Shown in pieces: positions 43-8,562 of a stretch of DNA of 9,171 nucleotides (the first letter of the stretch is position 1; the number at the start of each line of letters is the position of its first letter). The stretch is taken from the NCBI GenBank assembly GCA_020847555.1, contig JADLBT010000042.1, forward strand, positions 1 through 9,171. Direction: 5' to 3'. The DNA is from Gemmataceae bacterium. Its GTDB lineage: Bacteria > Planctomycetota > Planctomycetia > Gemmatales > Gemmataceae. The translations under genes were made by a program, and so were the position numbers. The notes beneath the pieces are model-generated. The model saw only the letters and a program-made list of their open reading frames with translations, did no database searches and was not told the DNA's origin.

Positions 43-69
43 CCCGTCCTGACTTTCCTGGCCGACATG

Positions 70-78
70 AAAGGAGGT
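70..78 (+). promoter_or_regulatory. Shine-Dalgarno that fixes the start of the Mom-like gene
   Basis: AAAGGAGGT lies 9 bases before the ATG at 88. An earlier in-frame ATG at 67 sits immediately in front of this ribosome-binding site and would translate it as coding sequence. The start at 88 is therefore preferred. Confidence 0.8.
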
Positions 79-87
79 TCTCGCCCC

Positions 88-882
88 ATGGCTGACCTTG
101 TGCCCAGCCAGCGCTGGTGGATAGGCCGTGACGCCTACCGCCCACCCGACGAACCGATCCGCACCCGAGAGTATGACGTTGCCGAGTTGCCCGACGACCG
201 TCTCGCCAGGGCGTTCGTCCTGGAGCACCACTACGCCGGCAGTTACCCCGCCGCCCGCTGGCGCTTCGGCCTGTTCCGCCGGGGCGTGCTGCAGGGCATG
301 GCCGTCTTCTCACACCCCTGCAACGACCGCGTGCTCACCTCCGTCTTCCCCGGCAGCGCCACCGACTCGGTGGAGCTGGGTCGCTTTGTCCTGCTCGACG
401 AGGTGCCCGGCAATGGCGAGACCTGGATGCTGGGCCGCTGCTTCCGCCTGTTGCGCCGCGAGGGGCTGGCCGGCGTGCTGGCCTTCTCCGACCCGTGCCG
501 TCGCTTCAACCGGCGCGGGGAGGTCGTCTTCGGCGGCCACATCGGCCGCATCTATCAGGCGCACAACGGCGTCTACCTTGGGCGCTCCGCACCGCGGACG
601 CTCACCCTGCTGCCCGATGGCCGGGTCTTCTCCGACCGGGCGCAGCAGAAGGTCCGCGGCGCCGAGCGAGGCGTGGCCTACGCCATCGGCCTGCTGGTCG
701 CATGCGGCGCAGAGCCACCAGGCTGCGACGACCCCGACGAATTGAGCGCCTGGCTGCGCCGGTGGAAGGCGCGGCTGTGCCGCACGCTGAGGCACCAGGG
801 CAACCACCGCTACGCCTGGCCGCTGCGCCCGCATGTGCGGCTGCCGCCCGGCCTGCCCTACCCCCGGCAGATCGACTCCTGA
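88..882 (+). CDS. Mom-like DNA adenine modification protein (GNAT-fold acyltransferase)
   Basis: The protein has 264 residues and resembles the phage Mu Mom family, GNAT-fold enzymes that convert N6 of adenine in DNA to a carbamoylmethyl form and so protect DNA from restriction. Visible family marks are the HHY at residues 47-49, the strand ELGRFVL around 97-102 with a conserved Arg, SDP at 134-136, GHIGRIYQAHN at 150-160 followed by a VYLG strand, and the basic, aromatic NHRYAW near 239-244. The length is close to that of Mom proteins. It is cytoplasmic, with no signal peptide or membrane segment. Ninety-six bases separate it from the methyltransferase-like gene, so the two probably share a transcript. 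The chemical group it transfers cannot be read from sequence. The GNAT/Mom assignment rests on remembered motif patterns, not on a search. Confidence 0.75.
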   Translation: MADLVPSQRWWIGRDAYRPPDEPIRTREYDVAELPDDRLARAFVLEHHYAGSYPAARWRFGLFRRGVLQGMAVFSHPCNDRVLTSVFPGSATDSVELGRFVLLDEVPGNGETWMLGRCFRLLRREGLAGVLAFSDPCRRFNRRGEVVFGGHIGRIYQAHNGVYLGRSAPRTLTLLPDGRVFSDRAQQKVRGAERGVAYAIGLLVACGAEPPGCDDPDELSAWLRRWKARLCRTLRHQGNHRYAWPLRPHVRLPPGLPYPRQIDS

Positions 883-978: not shown

Positions 979-1848
979 ATGAGCGCACCCACCGGGGCGC
1001 ACGCCACCGATACGGCGCGTGACCTGACCGCCTTCATGGCGCAGCGCGACCGTCTGCCCCGGCTGGGAGATTCCCCGGCCCCCTGGCACTACCGCGGCTG
1101 GCTGTTGCCCTACGTCATCCAGCTCCACGCCATCATCCCGGCGGTCGCCGACCGCTGGGGCTACCACCTCCGGACGCTCGAAGCCGGCCGGCTACTGGAG
1201 GAACCCATCCCCCAGATCACCTTCGGCGCACCTGACAACAAGGTCTTCGGGCTGCTCCGGAGCTGGTCCCGGATGGTCGGCCGCGAGTGCGGCGGCTGGA
1301 GCGACTTCCGCACCTTGCTCGACTGGCTCTGCTGGGCCCTGAGCCTGTGCGGCGAGGAGCCTCGCCTGTCCGAAGCTGTGCAGGAGCAGCTCTACCGGGA
1401 GGTCAATCTCGCGCCGCTTCTGGCACACCCCCATGACCACCTCGGCGCCCACGTCGCGGCTGGCAAGGCGCGGGGCTGGAACCCGACCGCCTTCTTCCCG
1501 ACGCCTCACTCTGTCGTCGAGTGCATGGTGCAGATGACGATGCACGACGCCGGCAAGGACGGCCGCGACCCTCGGACGCGCAGCGTCTGCGATCCGTGCG
1601 TCGGCAGCGGGCGGGTGCTCCTGCACGCCAGCAACTTCTCCCTCAACCTCTGGGGCCAGGACATCGACCCGCTCGCCGTCGCCATGTGCAAGATCAACGG
1701 CGCGCTCTACGCCCCCTGGCTCGCCTTCCCCCTCCCCGCCTCCATCCTCGGCGCGCAGGTCGAGGAGTCGCCAGCCGAACCAATTCCCAAGGGGGTGCGG
1801 ATCTTCCGGACCGACGACCGGCGGCAGGGGCTTCTCTTCAACCCGTAA
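979..1848 (+). CDS. N6-adenine DNA methyltransferase-like protein lacking motif IV
   Basis: The protein has 289 residues. The C-terminal half resembles type I/IIG N6-adenine methylases: motif X as FFPTPHSVVECM (172-183), SAM-binding motif I as DPCVGSGRVLLHA (205-217), and an acidic motif II region GQDIDPLAVAMCKIN (226-240). The N-terminal 165 residues are helical, Trp-rich and not recognised. The catalytic NPPY/F motif, expected some 60-90 residues after motif I, is absent. The protein stops at FNP, with no continuation in any frame after the TAA. It may bind SAM without methylating, may depend on a partner, or may be a truncated enzyme. The tail RQGLLF (282-287) resembles a sliding-clamp-binding peptide. 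The SD AAAGGAG (964-969 core) supports the start. It follows the Mom-like gene in the same direction. Confidence 0.7.
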   Translation: MSAPTGAHATDTARDLTAFMAQRDRLPRLGDSPAPWHYRGWLLPYVIQLHAIIPAVADRWGYHLRTLEAGRLLEEPIPQITFGAPDNKVFGLLRSWSRMVGRECGGWSDFRTLLDWLCWALSLCGEEPRLSEAVQEQLYREVNLAPLLAHPHDHLGAHVAAGKARGWNPTAFFPTPHSVVECMVQMTMHDAGKDGRDPRTRSVCDPCVGSGRVLLHASNFSLNLWGQDIDPLAVAMCKINGALYAPWLAFPLPASILGAQVEESPAEPIPKGVRIFRTDDRRQGLLFNP

Positions 1849-2437: not shown

Positions 2438-2800
2438 ATGTCCCACATCGTCACCGTCCAGACCCGGGTCCACGACCCGGCTGCCATCGCCGCCGCCTGC
2501 CAGCGGCTCGGACTGTCCGCCCCCGCACAGGGTACAGGTCGCCTCTACAGCGGCGAGGCGACCGGCCTGCTCGTGCAACTCCCGGGCTGGCAGTACCCCG
2601 TCGTCATCGACCCGCTGACCGGCGCCGTGCGCTACGACAACTACGGCGGCGCCTGGGGCGAGCAGGTACATCTGGACCGCTTCCTGCAGGCCTACGCCGT
2701 CGAGAAGTGCCGCATCGAGGCCAGGAAGAAGGGCCTCCAGGTCAGCGAGCAGCCGCTCGCGGACGGCAGCATCCGGCTGGCCCTCGCCGAGGGAGGCTGA
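2438..2800 (+). CDS. DUF1257 (Ycf35-like) protein
   Basis: The protein has 120 residues and matches the DUF1257/Ycf35 pattern: an MSH start with T and D positions (MSHIVTVQTRVHD), a middle with LPGWQYPVVIDPLTGAVRYD-type strands (48-67), a GGAWG turn (70-74) resembling the family's YDNYGGxWG, then LDRFLQAYAVEK (79-90) leading to a helix and a C-terminal DGSIRLAL strand (109-116). Ycf35 is conserved in cyanobacteria and plastids, where its role is not settled. It is often encoded near DUF2997 and an AAA+ ATPase, and both follow here. The SD GAGGAGGAA (2421-2429) is strong. The 68-base gap before it holds two short dyads, CGGCGC-G-GCGCCG (2375-2387) and CGTC-T-GACG (2397-2405). It is probably the first gene of a three-gene translational unit. 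Confidence 0.8.
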   Translation: MSHIVTVQTRVHDPAAIAAACQRLGLSAPAQGTGRLYSGEATGLLVQLPGWQYPVVIDPLTGAVRYDNYGGAWGEQVHLDRFLQAYAVEKCRIEARKKGLQVSEQPLADGSIRLALAEGG

Positions 2801-2803
2801 GCG

Positions 2804-3028
2804 ATGACCCAGCCCCGACGATGTCTCATCCGGACGCCGCCCGCTCCGCCGACCCCCAGCGCCAGGACGCAGGACAGGATCCGCCGGCTGCGGGAGCGGC
2901 TGGCCGGCGAGCGGGCCACCCTGGCCCGTTGGATGACGCGCCTGCGCCGCGCCTTCCACAGAGTCGAGCAACTTCAACGCTCCGTCGCCCGCATCGAACG
3001 ACAGATCACCCGACTGGAGGAGCCCTGA
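2804..3028 (+). CDS. 74-residue basic coiled-coil protein
   Basis: The start is 3 bases after the DUF1257 stop, with SD GAGGGAGG (2789-2796) lying inside the end of that gene. The stop TGA shares a base with the next ATG (TGATG at 3026-3030). Residues 1-22 are Pro- and Arg-rich and probably disordered. Residues 23-72 form a long helix with Leu/Ile/Val spaced as heptads (IRRL, ERLA, RATLARW, LRRAFHRVEQL, IERQITRLEE) and many Arg. This tight coupling argues that it is a real gene and a working partner of its neighbours, perhaps an oligomerising adaptor. No family is recognised. Confidence 0.7.
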   Translation: MTQPRRCLIRTPPAPPTPSARTQDRIRRLRERLAGERATLARWMTRLRRAFHRVEQLQRSVARIERQITRLEEP

Positions 3029-3216
3029 TGGCCAGGATCATCGAGGTCACCGTCTCGCCGCAGGGCGAGGCCACCGTGCAGACGAAGGGCTACGCCGGCG
3101 CCGAGTGCCGCCAGGCCAGCCAGTTCCTGGAGCAGGCGCTGGGCGTGGCCATGCAGGACCGCAACACCGCGGAGTTCTACGCCGAGGCCCAGGCCCAGCA
3201 GCACGCCCAGCAGTAA
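3028..3216 (+). CDS. DUF2997 family protein
   Basis: The protein has 62 residues and matches DUF2997: an N-terminal strand IIEVTVSPQGEATVQTKGYAG (split here as residues 4-13 and 14-24), then a Cys-containing helix AECRQASQFLEQALG (25-39), then a short helix NTAEFYAE and a Gln-rich tail. The ATG overlaps the previous stop by one base, with SD GGAGGAG at 3016-3022. The frame is open upstream to about 2707, but that part lies over two other genes and is ignored. DUF2997 proteins are commonly encoded beside DUF1257 proteins, so this pairing supports both calls. The function is unknown. The gene ends before a strong hairpin. Confidence 0.8.
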   Translation: MARIIEVTVSPQGEATVQTKGYAGAECRQASQFLEQALGVAMQDRNTAEFYAEAQAQQHAQQ

Positions 3217-3313: not shown

Positions 3314-4801
3314 ATGAACCTGACCGAACAGCTCACCGACTACGTCCGCGCCGCCTTCAGCGGCCTGTACCTCGTCACCCACGAGCCCGACGAGGCCGAG
3401 CGCGAGATCGCCGCCCTGGCCCGCGCGCACAACTGGAAGCTCGCCTGCTGGGACATCGCGGCAGGCCTGCGCTTCCCCAATGCGCCCCGGAACGCGCCCA
3501 CCGACGTCGGCGCCGGCGACCCGCTCGCCGTGCTGCGGGCCGTACCGGCGCTGGCCGAGTCCGACGGCACCGCCCTCGTCCTGCTGCACAACTACCACAA
3601 GTTCTTCGGGAACCCGGAGGTCGTGCAGACCACCTTCGCCCAGCTCGTCGCCGGTAAGCAGCAGCGCACCTTCCTCGTCGTCCTCGCACCGATCGTGCAG
3701 GTCCCGGTCGAGCTGGAGAAGCTCTTCGTCGTGGTCGAGCACGCGCTGCCCGACCGTCAGCAGCTCGAACGCATCGCCTGCGGCGTGACTGCGGACCGTC
3801 CCGAGGAGATGCCGGCGGGGGAGGACCTGCAGCGCGTGCTGGACGCGGCGGCTGGCCTGACGCGCTACGAGGCGGAGAACAGCTTCGCGCTGTCGCTGAT
3901 CCGGCATGACGCCCTGCGGCCCGAGAGCATCTGGGAGATGAAGGCTCAGGCCCTCAAGAAGAACAACCTGTTGACGCTGCACCGAGGCGGCGAGCGCTTC
4001 GACTCGCTGGGCGGCCTGGCCAACCTCAAGGAGTTCTGCGCCCGCGCCCTTCGCCCTGGCCGATCAGTCAAGCCGCGAGGCATCCTGCTCCTGGGCGTGC
4101 CCGGCGTCGGCAAGAGCGCATTCGCGAAGTGCCTGGGCAACGAGACAGGGCGCCCGACGCTGCTGCTCGACCTGGGGGCGCTGTACGGCTCGCTGGTCGG
4201 GGCCACCGAGGCCAACGTCCGTCAAGCGCTGCGCGTCGCCGACGCCATGAGCCCGGCGATCCTGTTCTGCGACGAGGTCGAGAAGGCCCTCTCCGGCGTG
4301 GGCAGCAGCGGCGACAGCGGCGTCGCCACCCGGCTGTTCGGCACGCTGCTCACCTGGCTGTCGGACAGGACGAGCGACTGCTTCTTCATAGGCACCTGCA
4401 ACGACATCAGCAAGCTGCCCCCGGAGTTCACGCGGGCCGAGCGCTTCGACGGCGTCTTCTTCCTCGATCTGCCCACGGTCCCGGAGAAGGACCCCATATG
4501 GCGGATGTACCGCCGGCAGTTCGGCGTCCCCGAGGGGCAGGCCCGGCCTGACAACACCTCCTGGACCGGGGCCGAGGTCCGCTCCTGCTGCCGGCTGGCC
4601 GCCCTGCTCGACATCACCTTGACACAGGCGGCACATCACGTCGTGCCGGTGGCCGTGACCGCGGCGGAGCAGGTCGAGCGGCTTCGCACCTGGGCCAACG
4701 GCCGCTGCCTGTCGGCCTCGACCCCCGGCATCTATCGCCGCGACGGTGAGCCGGCCGGCCGGCCGGGCCGCCGCGTCCAGCGCGGCGGCAGCAACAACTG
4801 A
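3314..4801 (+). CDS. Ycf46-like AAA+ ATPase
   Basis: The protein has 495 residues with the two-part layout of Ycf46. The N-terminal domain (1-215) begins with a helix and LYLVTHEPDEAE (18-29), and contains CWDIAAGL (45-52), LLHNYHKFFGNPEVV (90-104) and LVVLAPIVQVPVELEKLF (121-138). The C-terminal AAA+ core has RFDSLGGLANLKEF (228-241), Walker A GVPGVGKS (261-268), Walker B ILFCDE (316-321), sensor 1 GTCND (360-364), RAERFDGVFFLDLP (374-387) in place of the usual RxGRFD, and WTGAEVR (417-423) at sensor 2. The key catalytic residues are present, so it should hydrolyse ATP. The last 25 residues are basic and Gly/Arg-rich, probably disordered. The SD is weaker than its neighbours' (GGAG at 3297-3300, 13 bases before ATG). 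It follows the DUF1257/DUF2997 genes and is bracketed by two hairpins. The substrate is unknown. Confidence 0.85.
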   Translation: MNLTEQLTDYVRAAFSGLYLVTHEPDEAEREIAALARAHNWKLACWDIAAGLRFPNAPRNAPTDVGAGDPLAVLRAVPALAESDGTALVLLHNYHKFFGNPEVVQTTFAQLVAGKQQRTFLVVLAPIVQVPVELEKLFVVVEHALPDRQQLERIACGVTADRPEEMPAGEDLQRVLDAAAGLTRYEAENSFALSLIRHDALRPESIWEMKAQALKKNNLLTLHRGGERFDSLGGLANLKEFCARALRPGRSVKPRGILLLGVPGVGKSAFAKCLGNETGRPTLLLDLGALYGSLVGATEANVRQALRVADAMSPAILFCDEVEKALSGVGSSGDSGVATRLFGTLLTWLSDRTSDCFFIGTCNDISKLPPEFTRAERFDGVFFLDLPTVPEKDPIWRMYRRQFGVPEGQARPDNTSWTGAEVRSCCRLAALLDITLTQAAHHVVPVAVTAAEQVERLRTWANGRCLSASTPGIYRRDGEPAGRPGRRVQRGGSNN

Positions 4802-4884: not shown

Positions 4885-5862
4885 ATGAGCACCCTGACCG
4901 TTAGCGACATCCCCCTGAGCGCCGAGAGCCCGGCCCAGCGCCTGCGCCGCACCGCCGCGGCCGTGCGCGTGATGCTCCACTGGTGGGGGGTCCACCGCGC
5001 CCTGACGCCCCAACAGCGCGAGGAGATCGGCTCCGTCACCTCTGCCGACTCCCGTTTCCTGACCGCCGGCAAGAAGCTGGTGGACGTGCGCCACGAGGCG
5101 TTCCGCCGGCTCACGTCGATCCGGACTCGCCTGTCCAACTACTGGCGTGGGATCACGCTGCCCTACACCGAGCCGGGCGTGCGGCTCATCCGCCAGTCCG
5201 ACATCGAGAGCTTCGTTCATACCCTGGAGGGCTTCCGCGACGAGCTGACCGGCGCCGAGACTGACCTGAACGCGGTCTACGACGAGATCAAGAGCGACGC
5301 CCGACGCCGGCTGGGCCGCCTCTTCAACCCGGCCGACTACCCGCCGGAGGTCCGCGGCCTGTTCCGGGTGGACTGGGACTTCCCCAGCGTCGAGCCGCCC
5401 AGCTACCTGATGCGGATCGCGCCGGAGGTGTACGAGCAGGAGCGCCAGCGCGTGGCGGCCCGCTTCAACGAAGCGGTGCGCCTGGCCGAGCAGGCGTTCG
5501 CCACCGAGTTCGCCCGTCTGCTGTCCCACCTGACCGCACGCCTTGCCAGCGGCGAGAACGGCGAGCGCCAGGTGTTCCGCGACTCGGTCGTCAGCAACCT
5601 GACGGAGTTCTTCCAGCGGTTCAGCGAACTGAACGTGCGCAGCAACCCGGACCTGGACGCGCTGGTCGAGCAGGCGCAGCGGCTGGTGCGGGGCGTCACG
5701 CCGCAGCAACTCCGCGGCAGCGACTCGCTGCGCCAGCACGTCGCGGCCGAGATGGCGCTCATGCAGGCCCGGGTCGAGGGGCTGCTCACCGACGCGCCGC
5801 GGCGGCGCCTGATCCGCAACCGCCCGTCCGCCAACGGAGGGGGCCATGCAACTGCGGGTTGA
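4885..5862 (+). CDS. DUF3150-like helical protein
   Basis: The protein has 325 residues, almost all predicted helix with charged coiled-coil stretches. The layout resembles DUF3150 proteins found on phages and conjugative elements next to AAA+ ATPases: a TPQQREEIGS-type segment after a Trp pair (33-50), LTAGKKLVD (59-67, like the family's SLGSKK block), a long helix, a GVRLIRQSDIESF segment (98-110), then LGRLFNPADYP and FRVDWDFPSVEPPSYL (143-175), and a long helix rich in EAxRLAEQAF. The C-terminus (302-325) is Arg/Pro/Gly-rich. There is no signal peptide or membrane segment and no catalytic motif. The gene overlaps the next one by 17 bases. It may be a scaffold or partner for the AAA+ ATPase just upstream. 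The family call is from memory of the pattern and is moderate at best; the gene itself is certain. Confidence 0.6.
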   Translation: MSTLTVSDIPLSAESPAQRLRRTAAAVRVMLHWWGVHRALTPQQREEIGSVTSADSRFLTAGKKLVDVRHEAFRRLTSIRTRLSNYWRGITLPYTEPGVRLIRQSDIESFVHTLEGFRDELTGAETDLNAVYDEIKSDARRRLGRLFNPADYPPEVRGLFRVDWDFPSVEPPSYLMRIAPEVYEQERQRVAARFNEAVRLAEQAFATEFARLLSHLTARLASGENGERQVFRDSVVSNLTEFFQRFSELNVRSNPDLDALVEQAQRLVRGVTPQQLRGSDSLRQHVAAEMALMQARVEGLLTDAPRRRLIRNRPSANGGGHATAG

Positions 5863-6106
5863 TCCAGACGGCAGCGTCTGCTGTATCTACGCCGAGAGCA
5901 TCGACCTCTCTGCTCTCGGTGTCGTCACGATCCGCCGCGCCAGCCACGTCGAGCCGGATGAAGAAGGCCGTTGGTGGGCGGACCTCATGCCCGTCGGCGG
6001 TCCGCTACTCGGCCCCTTCCCCATGCGCACGCCGGCACTGGAGGCCGAGCAAGGCTGGCTGGACGCGCACTGGCTGGAGCGACCGTCTGCAGCGAACGCA
6101 CCGTGA
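5846..6106 (+). CDS. small conserved-looking protein (RASHVEPD / PVGGPLLGPF type), unknown function
   Basis: The protein has 86 residues and starts inside the end of the preceding gene with SD GGAGGGGG (5836-5843), so it is translationally coupled to it. The sequence reads as a compact beta-rich domain: MQLRVDPDGSV and IYAESIDL strands, RASHVEPDEEGRWWADL (31-47), PVGGPLLGPF (49-58), then a helix ALEAEQGWLDAHWL (63-76). This arrangement recurs in small hypothetical proteins of phages and mobile elements from many bacteria, in my recollection, with no known activity. There are no catalytic residues I can point to. It probably plays a general accessory role rather than one special to this locus. 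Confidence 0.75.
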   Translation: MQLRVDPDGSVCCIYAESIDLSALGVVTIRRASHVEPDEEGRWWADLMPVGGPLLGPFPMRTPALEAEQGWLDAHWLERPSAANAP

Positions 6107-6139: not shown

Positions 6140-6442
6140 ATGACTTCCATTCTCACGCCGGGTGAAACTGCCCGGGTCCGCACGCTGCACTTCCTGGCGC
6201 ACCGCGAGCTGTGGCCGCACTGGCCGAACCTGCCAGTCGTACGCCGGCGCCCCGGCCAGGACGAGGAGCTGGGCGTCGTCTTCGACGCGCTCGGCGCCTA
6301 TGGCCTGGCCGGATACTCCGCGACCGTCTTCAAGACCAACCTGTTCCTGCTGCCGCCGGCGCTGAACCAGTTCCTCGCCCTGCCGCACGAGACATTCGAC
6401 ACGCCGGAGGAGCTGTTCGACGCTGGCTGGACGGTCGATTGA
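6140..6442 (+). CDS. 100-residue protein, unknown function
   Basis: The start overlaps a TGA (CTGATGAC) and has the weakest ribosome-binding site in the window (GCGAGA, about 6129-6134). I kept it because the N-terminus reads well and no later Met is credible. Residues 1-35 are helical and contain an HRELWPHWPNLPVVRRRPGQ segment split by Pro. Residues 41-70 (ELGVVFDALGAYGLAGY, then VFKTNLFLLPPALNQF) are mildly hydrophobic but not membrane-like. The C-terminus is acidic (FDTPEELFDAGW). No family is recognised beyond a general resemblance to small accessory proteins of planctomycete genomes. Confidence 0.6.
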   Translation: MTSILTPGETARVRTLHFLAHRELWPHWPNLPVVRRRPGQDEELGVVFDALGAYGLAGYSATVFKTNLFLLPPALNQFLALPHETFDTPEELFDAGWTVD

Positions 6443-6497: not shown

Positions 6498-7907
6498 ATG
6501 ATAACCATTCCCCGCGCGCTGGCCCGCGTGTTGCGGGCGGTGCTGAGGCGCTCGGTCGTCGAGGAGGAGCCGAAGGGCGAGTGGCCCCTGCTCCTCTGCC
6601 GTGGCGGCCCGGACGGCCTCGCGCTGGAGGCCCACCGCGCCAGCGTTGGTGTCCGCTACCAGCTCGATGGCCCGCAGCCCGCCGGCGTCCTCACCTTCCG
6701 TTCGACGATACTCGCAGAGTTCGAGGGCCGCGGCAACGATCCCGTGACGCTGGAGCCGACCGGCCCCGGCAAGGCGCGGGCGCGCTGGCAGGAATCTGGT
6801 GTGCCGCGCGTCCTCGACCTGGAGACAGTCGATCCCGAGACCATTCCACCGCTGCCCGCCCAGCCGGCTCGGTGGGCGGCTCTGCCCGATTCGTTCCCCC
6901 AGGTCTTGCTCGACGCGGCCAACACCACCGCCCGCGAGTCGGGCCGGTTCACCCTGACGCGCGTGCAGCTCCGCGGCAGCCGCGGCCAGGTGGCCGCCAC
7001 CGACGGCCGGCAACTCCTGATTCGCAACGGCTTCGACTTCCCCTGGAAGGAAGATGTCCTCATCCCTCGGCTGCCGGCGCTGGGCCTGCGCGAGCTGCGC
7101 GACGAGAGGCTGATCGGCATTCGCCGCACCGAGGAGCACGTCGTGCTCCGCATTGGCGCCTGGACCTTCTTCCTCGCCATTGACCGCACCAGCCGCTTCC
7201 CCGACGTGCAGTCCGTGGTGCCCCGGCCTTCTACCTTCACCTCCCGGCTGCGCCTGGCGCCCGAGGACGTTGCCTTCCTGGCGAAGTCGCTGCCCGGCCT
7301 TCCCGGCGCGGACGACGATCACTCGCCCGTCACCCTCGACCTGGGGGAGCGAGCCGTGCTGCGCGCCCGCGGCGAGGGCGAGGCCCCGAGCACCGAGCTG
7401 GAACTGGCCCGGTCGATTGTCGAGGGCAAGGCCGTGAGGATCTCTGCCAACCGCCTCTACCTTCGGCGAGCGCTGGCGCTGGGCTTCCGCGAGCTTCAAG
7501 TCGGCGCGCCGGGACAGCCCGCCGCCTGGCGCGGAGGCGACGATGTGTACCTGTTCGTCCCGCTCGACGCGGGGAGCACAATACCCCCGAGTCAGGACGC
7601 CGTGCGCGTCACGTCCGCCCCAGGCGTCCCCCGGCCCATCTCTGACCACCGCCCCGATCCCGAACCTGAAAGGAGCGAACACACCATGCCCGAACCGAAT
7701 GGCAACAGCCACGCCACCAACGGCCCGCAGGACCACGCGGCCGGCATCGAGGAGTTGATCGACGAGACCGAGGGCCTGAAGCGTGCCCTGCAGGAGGCGG
7801 CCACACGGGCCGGCCGGCTGGCCGCGGCCCTGCGGCAACAGCGCCGCCAGAGCCGCGCCGTGCAGGCCGCCGTCGAGGCTCTGCGTGGCCTCAAGATCGG
7901 CCGCTGA
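6498..7907 (+). CDS. diverged DNA polymerase III beta subunit (sliding clamp), frame fused to a small coiled-coil protein
   Basis: The frame has 469 codons. Residues 1 to about 358 match the three-domain DnaN layout and length (DnaN is about 366 residues). Domain 1 ends in LDLETVDPETIPPLP (106-120), like the beta-clamp linker ending in eFPplp. Domain 2 has FTLTRVQLRG then QVAATDGRQLLI (164-175), the typical ATDgrRL strand, and ends in RFPDVQSVVP (233-242), matching FPDYxRVIP. Domain 3 has ISANRLYLRRAL (315-326) and ends YLFVPLD (351-357), like YLIMPMR at the DnaN C-terminus. It would encircle DNA as a polymerase processivity factor or a tether. Overall identity to housekeeping DnaN looks low. 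Residues 360-396 are a Pro-rich stretch, and from 397 on the frame is the small protein listed next. SD GGAGGT at 6487-6492. Confidence 0.7.
   Translation: MITIPRALARVLRAVLRRSVVEEEPKGEWPLLLCRGGPDGLALEAHRASVGVRYQLDGPQPAGVLTFRSTILAEFEGRGNDPVTLEPTGPGKARARWQESGVPRVLDLETVDPETIPPLPAQPARWAALPDSFPQVLLDAANTTARESGRFTLTRVQLRGSRGQVAATDGRQLLIRNGFDFPWKEDVLIPRLPALGLRELRDERLIGIRRTEEHVVLRIGAWTFFLAIDRTSRFPDVQSVVPRPSTFTSRLRLAPEDVAFLAKSLPGLPGADDDHSPVTLDLGERAVLRARGEGEAPSTELELARSIVEGKAVRISANRLYLRRALALGFRELQVGAPGQPAAWRGGDDVYLFVPLDAGSTIPPSQDAVRVTSAPGVPRPISDHRPDPEPERSEHTMPEPNGNSHATNGPQDHAAGIEELIDETEGLKRALQEAATRAGRLAAALRQQRRQSRAVQAAVEALRGLKIGR
7668..7675 (+). promoter_or_regulatory. internal Shine-Dalgarno within the clamp-like frame
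   Basis: GAAAGGAG lies 10 bases before an in-frame ATG at 7686. Its strength equals that of the true gene starts elsewhere in the window. It indicates independent initiation of the 73-residue protein. Confidence 0.7.
7686..7907 (+). CDS. 73-residue coiled-coil protein, nested in frame at the end of the clamp-like gene
   Basis: An ATG with its own strong SD (7668-7675) opens a 73-residue protein in the same frame as the clamp-like gene, with no stop between. Residues 1-19 are polar (MPEPNGNSHA start, Asn/Pro/His-rich). Residues 20-68 form one helix with heptad hydrophobics: IEELIDETEGL, ALQEAATRAGRLAAAL, QQRRQSRAVQAAVEAL. I recall free-standing proteins of this size and pattern in planctomycete genomes. 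That supports a separate gene whose upstream stop codon was lost, or a clamp made in two forms, one with the coiled-coil tail. The function is unknown; oligomerisation is the obvious guess. Confidence 0.65.
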   Translation: MPEPNGNSHATNGPQDHAAGIEELIDETEGLKRALQEAATRAGRLAAALRQQRRQSRAVQAAVEALRGLKIGR

Positions 7908-7962: not shown

Positions 7963-8562
7963 ATGTACTACAACACCCCGCACATTGCCCCGGAGGCGCG
8001 CCGCTGGCTGGTGCCCCGCCACCTCGACCTACTCGGCGCGGCGCTGGAGCGGCTCTGCGGTCAGACCCGAGCCGAGTTCGCCCGCACCCTGGCCGAACTG
8101 GCGGCGGGCTTCGTCTGCGAGGCCGTCTCCACGGCGCTCGCCGCCCCCGAGTACCGGACGCCGCGCGACTCCCTGGTCCGGCGCGACCGCCGCCGCTCGA
8201 TTCTCAATGTCTTCGACGACCCGGCGGTGGAGTACGACGACGACCTGGCCGACGGCTGGGAGGAGGAGCGCTTCCCGCCCACGTACTCCAACTGCGATCG
8301 CCCGGCGCTGGCCGCTGGGGAGGCCGTGCCGGCCGCGCTGGCCATCGGCCTGCGCGTGGCGGCCTGGTGGCTGGGCCGTCGCCCGGGCCGGCTGCCGCTG
8401 CTGTCCGCCATGACGCTCGGCGCCGCTACCACCGTGGTCGCAATGGCCGGCGGCCCGCTGGCGCTGGCCGGGTTCGGCCTGGCCGAGGCGGTGCTCAGCA
8501 TCGCGGCCGCTGACGGCGCCGGTCGGCTCGCGGCCCGGCTCCTGACCCCTTCCAGCAACTGA
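7963..8562 (+). CDS. probable membrane-anchored protein, unknown function
   Basis: The protein has 199 residues with SD GAGGA (7953-7957). The N-terminal 65 residues are helical and amphipathic (LDLLGAALERL, RAEFARTLAELAAGF). Residues 66-115 are charged and probably flexible, with acidic DDPAVEYDDDLADGWEEE after RRDRRR. The C-terminal third is hydrophobic: a weak segment 122-136 (VPAALAIGLRVAAWW), a short basic turn GRRPGR, and a long Ala/Gly/Val-rich segment 147-183 that could form one or two membrane helices (a hairpin). There is no signal peptide. It shares its reading frame, without stops, with the spacer and the next gene. The family is not recognised. Confidence 0.65.
   Translation: MYYNTPHIAPEARRWLVPRHLDLLGAALERLCGQTRAEFARTLAELAAGFVCEAVSTALAAPEYRTPRDSLVRRDRRRSILNVFDDPAVEYDDDLADGWEEERFPPTYSNCDRPALAAGEAVPAALAIGLRVAAWWLGRRPGRLPLLSAMTLGAATTVVAMAGGPLALAGFGLAEAVLSIAAADGAGRLAARLLTPSSN

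Follow-up and report, generated by a model that had tools for sequence, protein, structure and literature searches.

Sliding clamps are platforms for replication and repair, present as one main copy per bacterium, and the combination of a clamp with ubiquitin-type signalling and AAA remodelling is known from eukaryotic PCNA biology. Neighbourhoods of bacterial genes for ubiquitin-like (Ubl), E2-like, JAB and E1 proteins were reportedly treated by Iyer et al. in 2006. The term 'AAA' occurs 0 times in the main text of PMC1779556. According to an excerpt of PMC4284462, cyanobacterial DUF1257 and DUF2997 genes are neighbours of the ferredoxin gene fed7. Open-access searches with Ycf46/Ycf35 gave, among the matches listed, mostly plastid and other genome papers, while those with DUF1257/DUF2997 gave nothing on an AAA-clamp module, as judged by titles. 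Nothing was found in the open-access literature on DUF3150 or on planctomycete E2/RING systems, and nothing relevant by title on bacterial ubiquitin with Cdc48. For clamp gene neighbourhoods, this literature yielded a review of jumbo phages (PMC7824862), and an excerpt of PMC12153180 concerns clamp loaders, not clamps. A clamp within an AAA core, with exchange for a ubiquitin-like cassette, was not found in open-access sources, where searches with 'DNAN' were swamped by other uses of the term.

The DNA analysed here, termed the window, is a stretch of 9,171 nucleotides from a Gemmataceae bacterium that makes up an entire contig, and its core genes have counterparts on plasmids. Plasmid CP114554 of Candidatus Manganitrophus encodes the same core proteins (AAA, DUF1257, DUF2997 and DUF3150), including a conserved protein of 86 amino acids (aa). 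On this Nitrospirota plasmid (L089, CP114554.1 107320-124750), the whole core is present, the DUF3150-like protein is split over two open reading frames (ORFs), and a JAB-domain gene lies upstream. Regions of Paenibacillus and Thermovibrio plasmids share the AAA-DUF1257-DUF2997 module, with no DUF3150 match in the regions read. Unlike the window, these plasmid modules contain no clamp and have different neighbours, for instance 4Fe-4S single-cluster proteins or a JAB protein. Plasmid AAA relatives adjoin 4Fe-4S single-cluster proteins in L090, L092 and L094, confirmed by Pfam Fer4_12 in L090 and L092. Labels such as F11, F13, F22, F52 and g86 were coined in the present analysis.

A divergent second sliding clamp

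The gene at 6498..7907 (+ strand) encodes a sliding-clamp paralogue of 469 aa, identified from the ORF list, a profile search and the predicted fold. The preliminary description had noted clamp signatures in the expected order over a DnaN-like length and had proposed an accessory, strongly diverged clamp. The signatures were confirmed; the TDG and FPD..P junction motifs and the PL/PM ending are present. The check that it had proposed for residues 1-360, by profile and structure prediction, returned a three-domain beta-clamp fold, which extends over 344 residues with 13-22% identity to the solved clamps compared; three tandem clamp domains span the whole ring part of the protein. As a single protein, the window clamp did not match the DnaN model TIGR00663 at E 0.1 and did not reach the curated cut-off; only 2 of 70 aligned clamp proteins matched at E 1 or better (best 0.00096). 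A separate dnaN scoring over the curated cut-off was detected in 21/21 relatives' genomes with the family (8 reached through loci and 13 from a phylum sample), so in these genomes the family is not the main or only clamp. The proposal of an accessory clamp was thus borne out by the profile, the fold and the separate dnaN, and the window protein is a second clamp belonging to a divergent subfamily of a known fold, a status that for the window's own cell is extrapolated from its relatives.

In all, 82 clamp proteins were found; the alignment left out the window's own copy along with 12 that were shorter or of odd length, and alignment counts refer to 70 rows. A two-domain, PCNA-style clamp was considered for L080 and L081, both from genome G129, which end at about 270-280 residues. 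These were taken as broken copies because L080 (9491-10953) breaks off in the third domain and continues into the sequence of the downstream nuclease gene, while L081, the second copy in that genome, is broken near the same motif and reaches a stop with no third domain behind it.

In the predicted structure, residues 1-360 form the clamp, about 361-416 a mostly low-confidence linker (most of 380-414 lie below pLDDT 50) and 417-464 a single long helix. A tail of at least 35 residues is present in 62/70 rows; a tail HMM, searched without L085 and L086, had no match in L074-L079 and L087, though the clamps there were otherwise recognised. Comparison was made with the residues that form the partner-binding cleft of the E. 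coli clamp. A hydrophobic cleft is largely retained, with 7 of the 12 aligned positions checked keeping one residue in >85% of the 70 rows. T168 (69/70), D169 (70/70), G170 (70/70), L173 (64/70), P242 (65/70) and L356 (70/70) are conserved; Q172, corresponding to E. coli R176, is Q in 60/70, and R171, corresponding to H175, is R in 53/70. In the C-terminal part of the cleft L356 alone is fixed, P355 being P in 47/70 and V360-P363 varying.

The first helix is Arg-rich, with a mean net charge of +4.9 (65 rows) versus about 0 in 22 DnaN proteins, and the last inner helix has +3.0 versus -0.4, while the four of the six inner helices compared that lie between them are less positive than in DnaN; this comparison by helix is approximate, as the DnaN helix limits were read off the alignment. 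The mean charge of the ring part is +2.0, against -8.9 for whole DnaN. The window clamp shares with DnaN the three-domain fold, both junction motifs, much of the cleft and the C-terminal PL/PM ending but differs in its Arg-rich first helix, its linker and coiled-coil tail and its accessory, sometimes multi-copy occurrence.

The linker also contains a putative internal start. An in-frame ATG at base 7686 (residue 397), with AAGGAG 10 nt upstream, would give a candidate second product of 73 aa consisting of the C-terminal coiled-coil tail (7686..7907, + strand). This ATG is preceded by CTGAAAGGAGCGAACACACC, a context resembling the one in which the methyltransferase-like gene of this operon begins, CTGAAAGGAGTCCTCTGCG. 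Residue 397 is M in 52 of the 69 rows without a gap at this position (V in 8 and I in 4) and is among the best-kept linker positions without being alone (P364, 57/70; R370, 52/70; R393, 50/69; P398, 51/63; N403, 51/68). A Met occurs within the linker in 53 of the 63 proteins having linker and tail. In a count that left out L082 and L029, an ATG with a Shine-Dalgarno (SD) match of at least 4 bases was found in the linker in 8/22 loci, compared to a mean of 1.1 after codon shuffling, in which 8 was never reached (0/1000). In the eight codons before the chosen ATG, AGA/AGG was used for 6 of 11 arginines versus 58/975 in the rest of the genes (Fisher p 2e-5), a value limited by the relatedness of the loci and by the choice of the best-SD ATG where a linker had several, which favours AGG. 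As the signal as defined is absent from 14/22 loci (nine without an ATG in the range searched and five with an ATG but without SD), these patterns only suggest an internal start for a free tail product, strongest near the window's clade and no rule of the family.

The window operon and its conserved core

The window genes under discussion are all on the + strand and tightly spaced. The first encodes a Mom-family DNA-modification protein (67..882; PF25680, E 4.3e-21) and adjoins a gene for an N6-type DNA methyltransferase-like protein (979..1848; PF02384, E 6.6e-7), both lying directly upstream of the core module; for neither was a tblastn match detected beside other copies (L001-L013 and L069-L088 searched). 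Two small ORFs follow and then the core: a DUF1257 (Ycf35-like) protein of 120 aa (2438..2800), whose Pfam PF06868 match (E 0.0027) is below the cut-off but whose position is conserved; a small coiled-coil protein of 74 aa (2804..3028), present in some core copies (family F22, 5/34 rows); a DUF2997 protein of 62 aa (3028..3216; PF11211, E 5.4e-13); an AAA ATPase of 495 aa (3314..4801); a DUF3150-like protein of 325 aa (4885..5862); and a conserved protein of 86 aa (5846..6106), present in 24/34 rows and matching the Manganitrophus plasmid at E 3.1e-32. A 100-aa protein (6140..6442) occupies the place of a protein of ~70 aa, F13, in most other copies; among the loci searched (L001-L013 and L069-L088), it has a relative in L013 only. 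The clamp gene comes next and is followed by two ORFs without assigned function. A 199-aa ORF behind the clamp (7963-8562) has hydrophobic stretches and no family match.

The AAA ATPase matches PF00004 (E 1.1e-25) and has a Cdc48/PAN-like AAA domain at residues 257-385. Its best NCBIfam matches are of the Cdc48/PAN/FtsH type, CDC48 being the best and far below its cut-off; a PHROG clamp-loader model was matched at E 8e-4 only. By profile comparison, the 325-aa protein is a DUF3150 relative: it aligned to the DUF3150 protein of the Manganitrophus plasmid in hhalign (97.8%, E 7.1e-13, 138 columns), and two ORFs of this plasmid were matched by the HMM of the DUF3150-like family (7e-20 and 7.5e-34). 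Among 59 relatives, Pfam itself recognised DUF3150 in just one (E 0.029).

The 36 clamp rows represent 34 distinct loci (L085 repeats L002, and L086 repeats L006). Five begin at most 260 bases from the clamp; of the remaining 29, which have upstream sequence, 25 have AAA and/or DUF3150-like genes upstream. Four distinct loci (L006, L083, L084 and L088, L083 having no more than about 2 kb of sequence before its clamp) have no core nearby; hence, the clamp may act without it. The F11 protein was found in 19 clamp rows, or 17/34 distinct loci, and a PD-(D/E)XK nuclease with a C-terminal Cys cluster in 9/34, one being the remnant fused to the broken clamp of L080. The nuclease behind the clamp matches PDDEXK_1 (E 3.9e-31) and, in PADLOC, the models of Cas4/DruK-like nucleases; without a dedicated search, no CRISPR or Druantia partner of it was recognised. 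Neither this nuclease gene nor the F11 gene is present in the window.

Ten proteins were compared with PADLOC. The AAA ATPase gave a weak match to IetA (2e-12), two nucleases matched Cas4/DruK down to 1e-15, and the methyltransferase-like protein matched at 1e-6. The clamp and the DUF3150-like, F11, Mom-like, DUF1257 and 86-aa proteins matched nothing, and no single known anti-phage system was completed by the 10 proteins. A scan of nine neighbour families for a clamp-binding motif of the Q-L-x-L-F type detected none.

A slot shared with a ubiquitin-like cassette

A further 20 core copies were chosen from 55 DUF3150-like matches. Behind the core, 11/20 had a cassette in the order Ubl, E2-like, JAB and E1, 2/20 (both in genome G369) had a clamp, and 7/20 had neither, one of these (L141) being interrupted by the contig end; these shares are no unbiased census because places without a known clamp were preferred. 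No DnaN-like ORF was detected at E 0.01 in the 18 of these loci without a clamp. Across the examined loci, what follows the AAA core in this slot is a clamp, a ubiquitin-like conjugation cassette or neither. The cassette of the 11 loci is of the kind seen in bacterial ubiquitin-like conjugation operons, and the window has a clamp in its place. The loci with the cassette, all from Planctomycetota, were L125-L130, L133-L136 and L139.

Cassette proteins matched ThiF (7e-25) and, just under its cut-off, Prok-JAB (2e-5), while the Ubl protein gave weak matches to Ub/ThiS-type models (E 0.04-0.08). The E2-like proteins were so named by us from an HPH-LCxG motif (9 ORFs) and a Cys-rich C terminus, Pfam having given no match in the two scanned. 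Genomes G246, G189 and G032 each combine a clamp locus with one or more ubiquitin-type loci. The two can also meet in one locus, as in L001 and L005, where the core is preceded by an E1-like ORF and followed by a clamp. In the tree of the AAA proteins (40 rows), 9 changes of the clamp label are required, at least 5 of them forced by well-supported branches; the tree of the DUF3150-like proteins (42 rows) requires 6, only 1 of which is forced by supported branches. L085, which repeats L002, was omitted from the trees, and each tree also lacks one short row; both carry a long-branch warning, the AAA row of L007 being a very long branch.

A strong clamp match (E below 1e-70) was found in 14/392 Planctomycetota genomes sampled, a search that scored at most four best candidates per genome and hence undercounts clamp copies and perhaps genomes. 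Thirteen of the 14 also have a DUF3150-like gene, and of the 27 sampled genomes with such a gene, 14 gave no strong clamp match. In genome contigs, a scan for a single peptide pattern led to 12 confirmed loci, all under planctomycete titles. Genome G369 has six clamp copies on one 5.5-Mb contig (four from the genome sample plus L140 and L144). Integrases were found in 9/54 rows searched, five of the nine being search seeds, and a tyrosine recombinase lies near one clamp locus only (L144). As just this one integrase row has a clamp, the module is described as accessory and sometimes multi-copy rather than as proven mobile, and mobility of its clamp form is weakly supported.

Proposed role and alternatives

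The window clamp has the clamp fold, is a paralogue and lies in a conserved operon. On account of its anatomy (fold, charge and cleft), we propose that the ring would serve as a DNA platform for the AAA machine. The paralogous three-domain clamp, mostly with a coiled-coil tail, would then be the module that provides an accessory AAA machine with its output on the DNA side, a proposal that we consider evenly poised between right and wrong. The clamp would close into a dimeric ring on DNA, with the Arg-rich helices of domains I and III lining the hole and partners binding via the conserved cleft and tail. The Cdc48-like AAA may load, unload or pull on the clamp, with the DUF3150-like and small proteins possibly acting as adaptors between the two, and in part of the loci the clamp could tether the Cas4-like PD-(D/E)XK nuclease whose gene lies immediately behind its own. 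Protein tagging would be the task of the alternative cassette, and clamp and cassette might both feed the same ATPase, as substrates or recruiters. The likeliest role would be the handling of foreign or damaged DNA, in defence or repair, and not replication of the module's own replicon. DNA scanning or tethering by the window clamp is possible and lies near to this model.

Several findings count against the AAA-clamp model. No Q-L-x-L-F-type motif was seen in the nine families, the four middle ones of the inner helices carry less positive charge than those of DnaN, the C-terminal part of the cleft is poorly fixed beyond L356, and four distinct clamp loci stand without a nearby core. More than half (14/27) of the genomes with a DUF3150-like gene lack a strong clamp match, the window is without F11 and the nuclease, six of the 10 proteins have no PADLOC match, and the DUF3150-like tree forces only one change of the clamp label. 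A bolder form of the model, in which a Cdc48-like AAA has interchangeable outputs (the ubiquitin-like cassette, or the clamp, sometimes with the nuclease, so that clamp-marked DNA replaces tag-marked protein) and the internal start supplies a free coiled-coil subunit, is tentative and, as a whole, unlikely to be right.

The clamp fold might instead have no role on DNA and be a protein scaffold only, serving the Cdc48-like AAA as substrate or adaptor, for example. The protein-tagging nature of the alternative cassette in the same slot and the less positive charge of four of the six inner helices would fit such a scaffold, which is nonetheless improbable given the strong positive charge of the first and last inner helices and the nuclease gene near the clamp in 9/34 distinct loci.

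The preliminary description had suggested a private replication or DNA-scanning system. In its present form, the replication explanation holds that the clamp replaces DnaN for the polymerase of an integrated element, in replication or repair, with the host's clamp loader placing it on DNA; the largely retained hydrophobic cleft for DnaN partners and the several chromosomal copies in some genomes speak for it. It is very improbable, as no polymerase, primase or clamp loader was recognised among the window genes or those conserved neighbour families that were inspected, no clamp match was obtained in 72,556 plasmid records at E 0.01 and only one locus in viral contigs, and by its best matches the AAA resembles Cdc48/PAN-type proteins rather than clamp loaders. 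Of the earlier interpretation, the accessory, diverged clamp therefore stands and the private replication finds no support; it had overlooked the C-terminal tail, the conservation of the operon and the exchange of cassettes. Equally poor are the prospects of a non-functional decoy that captures the clamp-binding proteins of invaders via its cleft, inhibiting the host clamp or phage replication, for although the cleft is largely conserved and nuclease and modification genes occur in some neighbourhoods, the arginines of the first helix, the positive charge of the ring part and the complete set of three domains suggest that DNA encirclement is retained, and the clamp is often associated with the AAA core.

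For the AAA-clamp model, the conserved gene set with its swappable clamp/ubiquitin-like slot suggests a modular machine of a new kind, for DNA handling or defence. The clamp module offers a handle on the function of DUF1257, DUF2997 and DUF3150 proteins. A family of clamps coupled to a Cdc48-like ATPase and interchangeable with a ubiquitin-like system would connect a clamp, ubiquitin-type signalling and AAA remodelling in bacteria.
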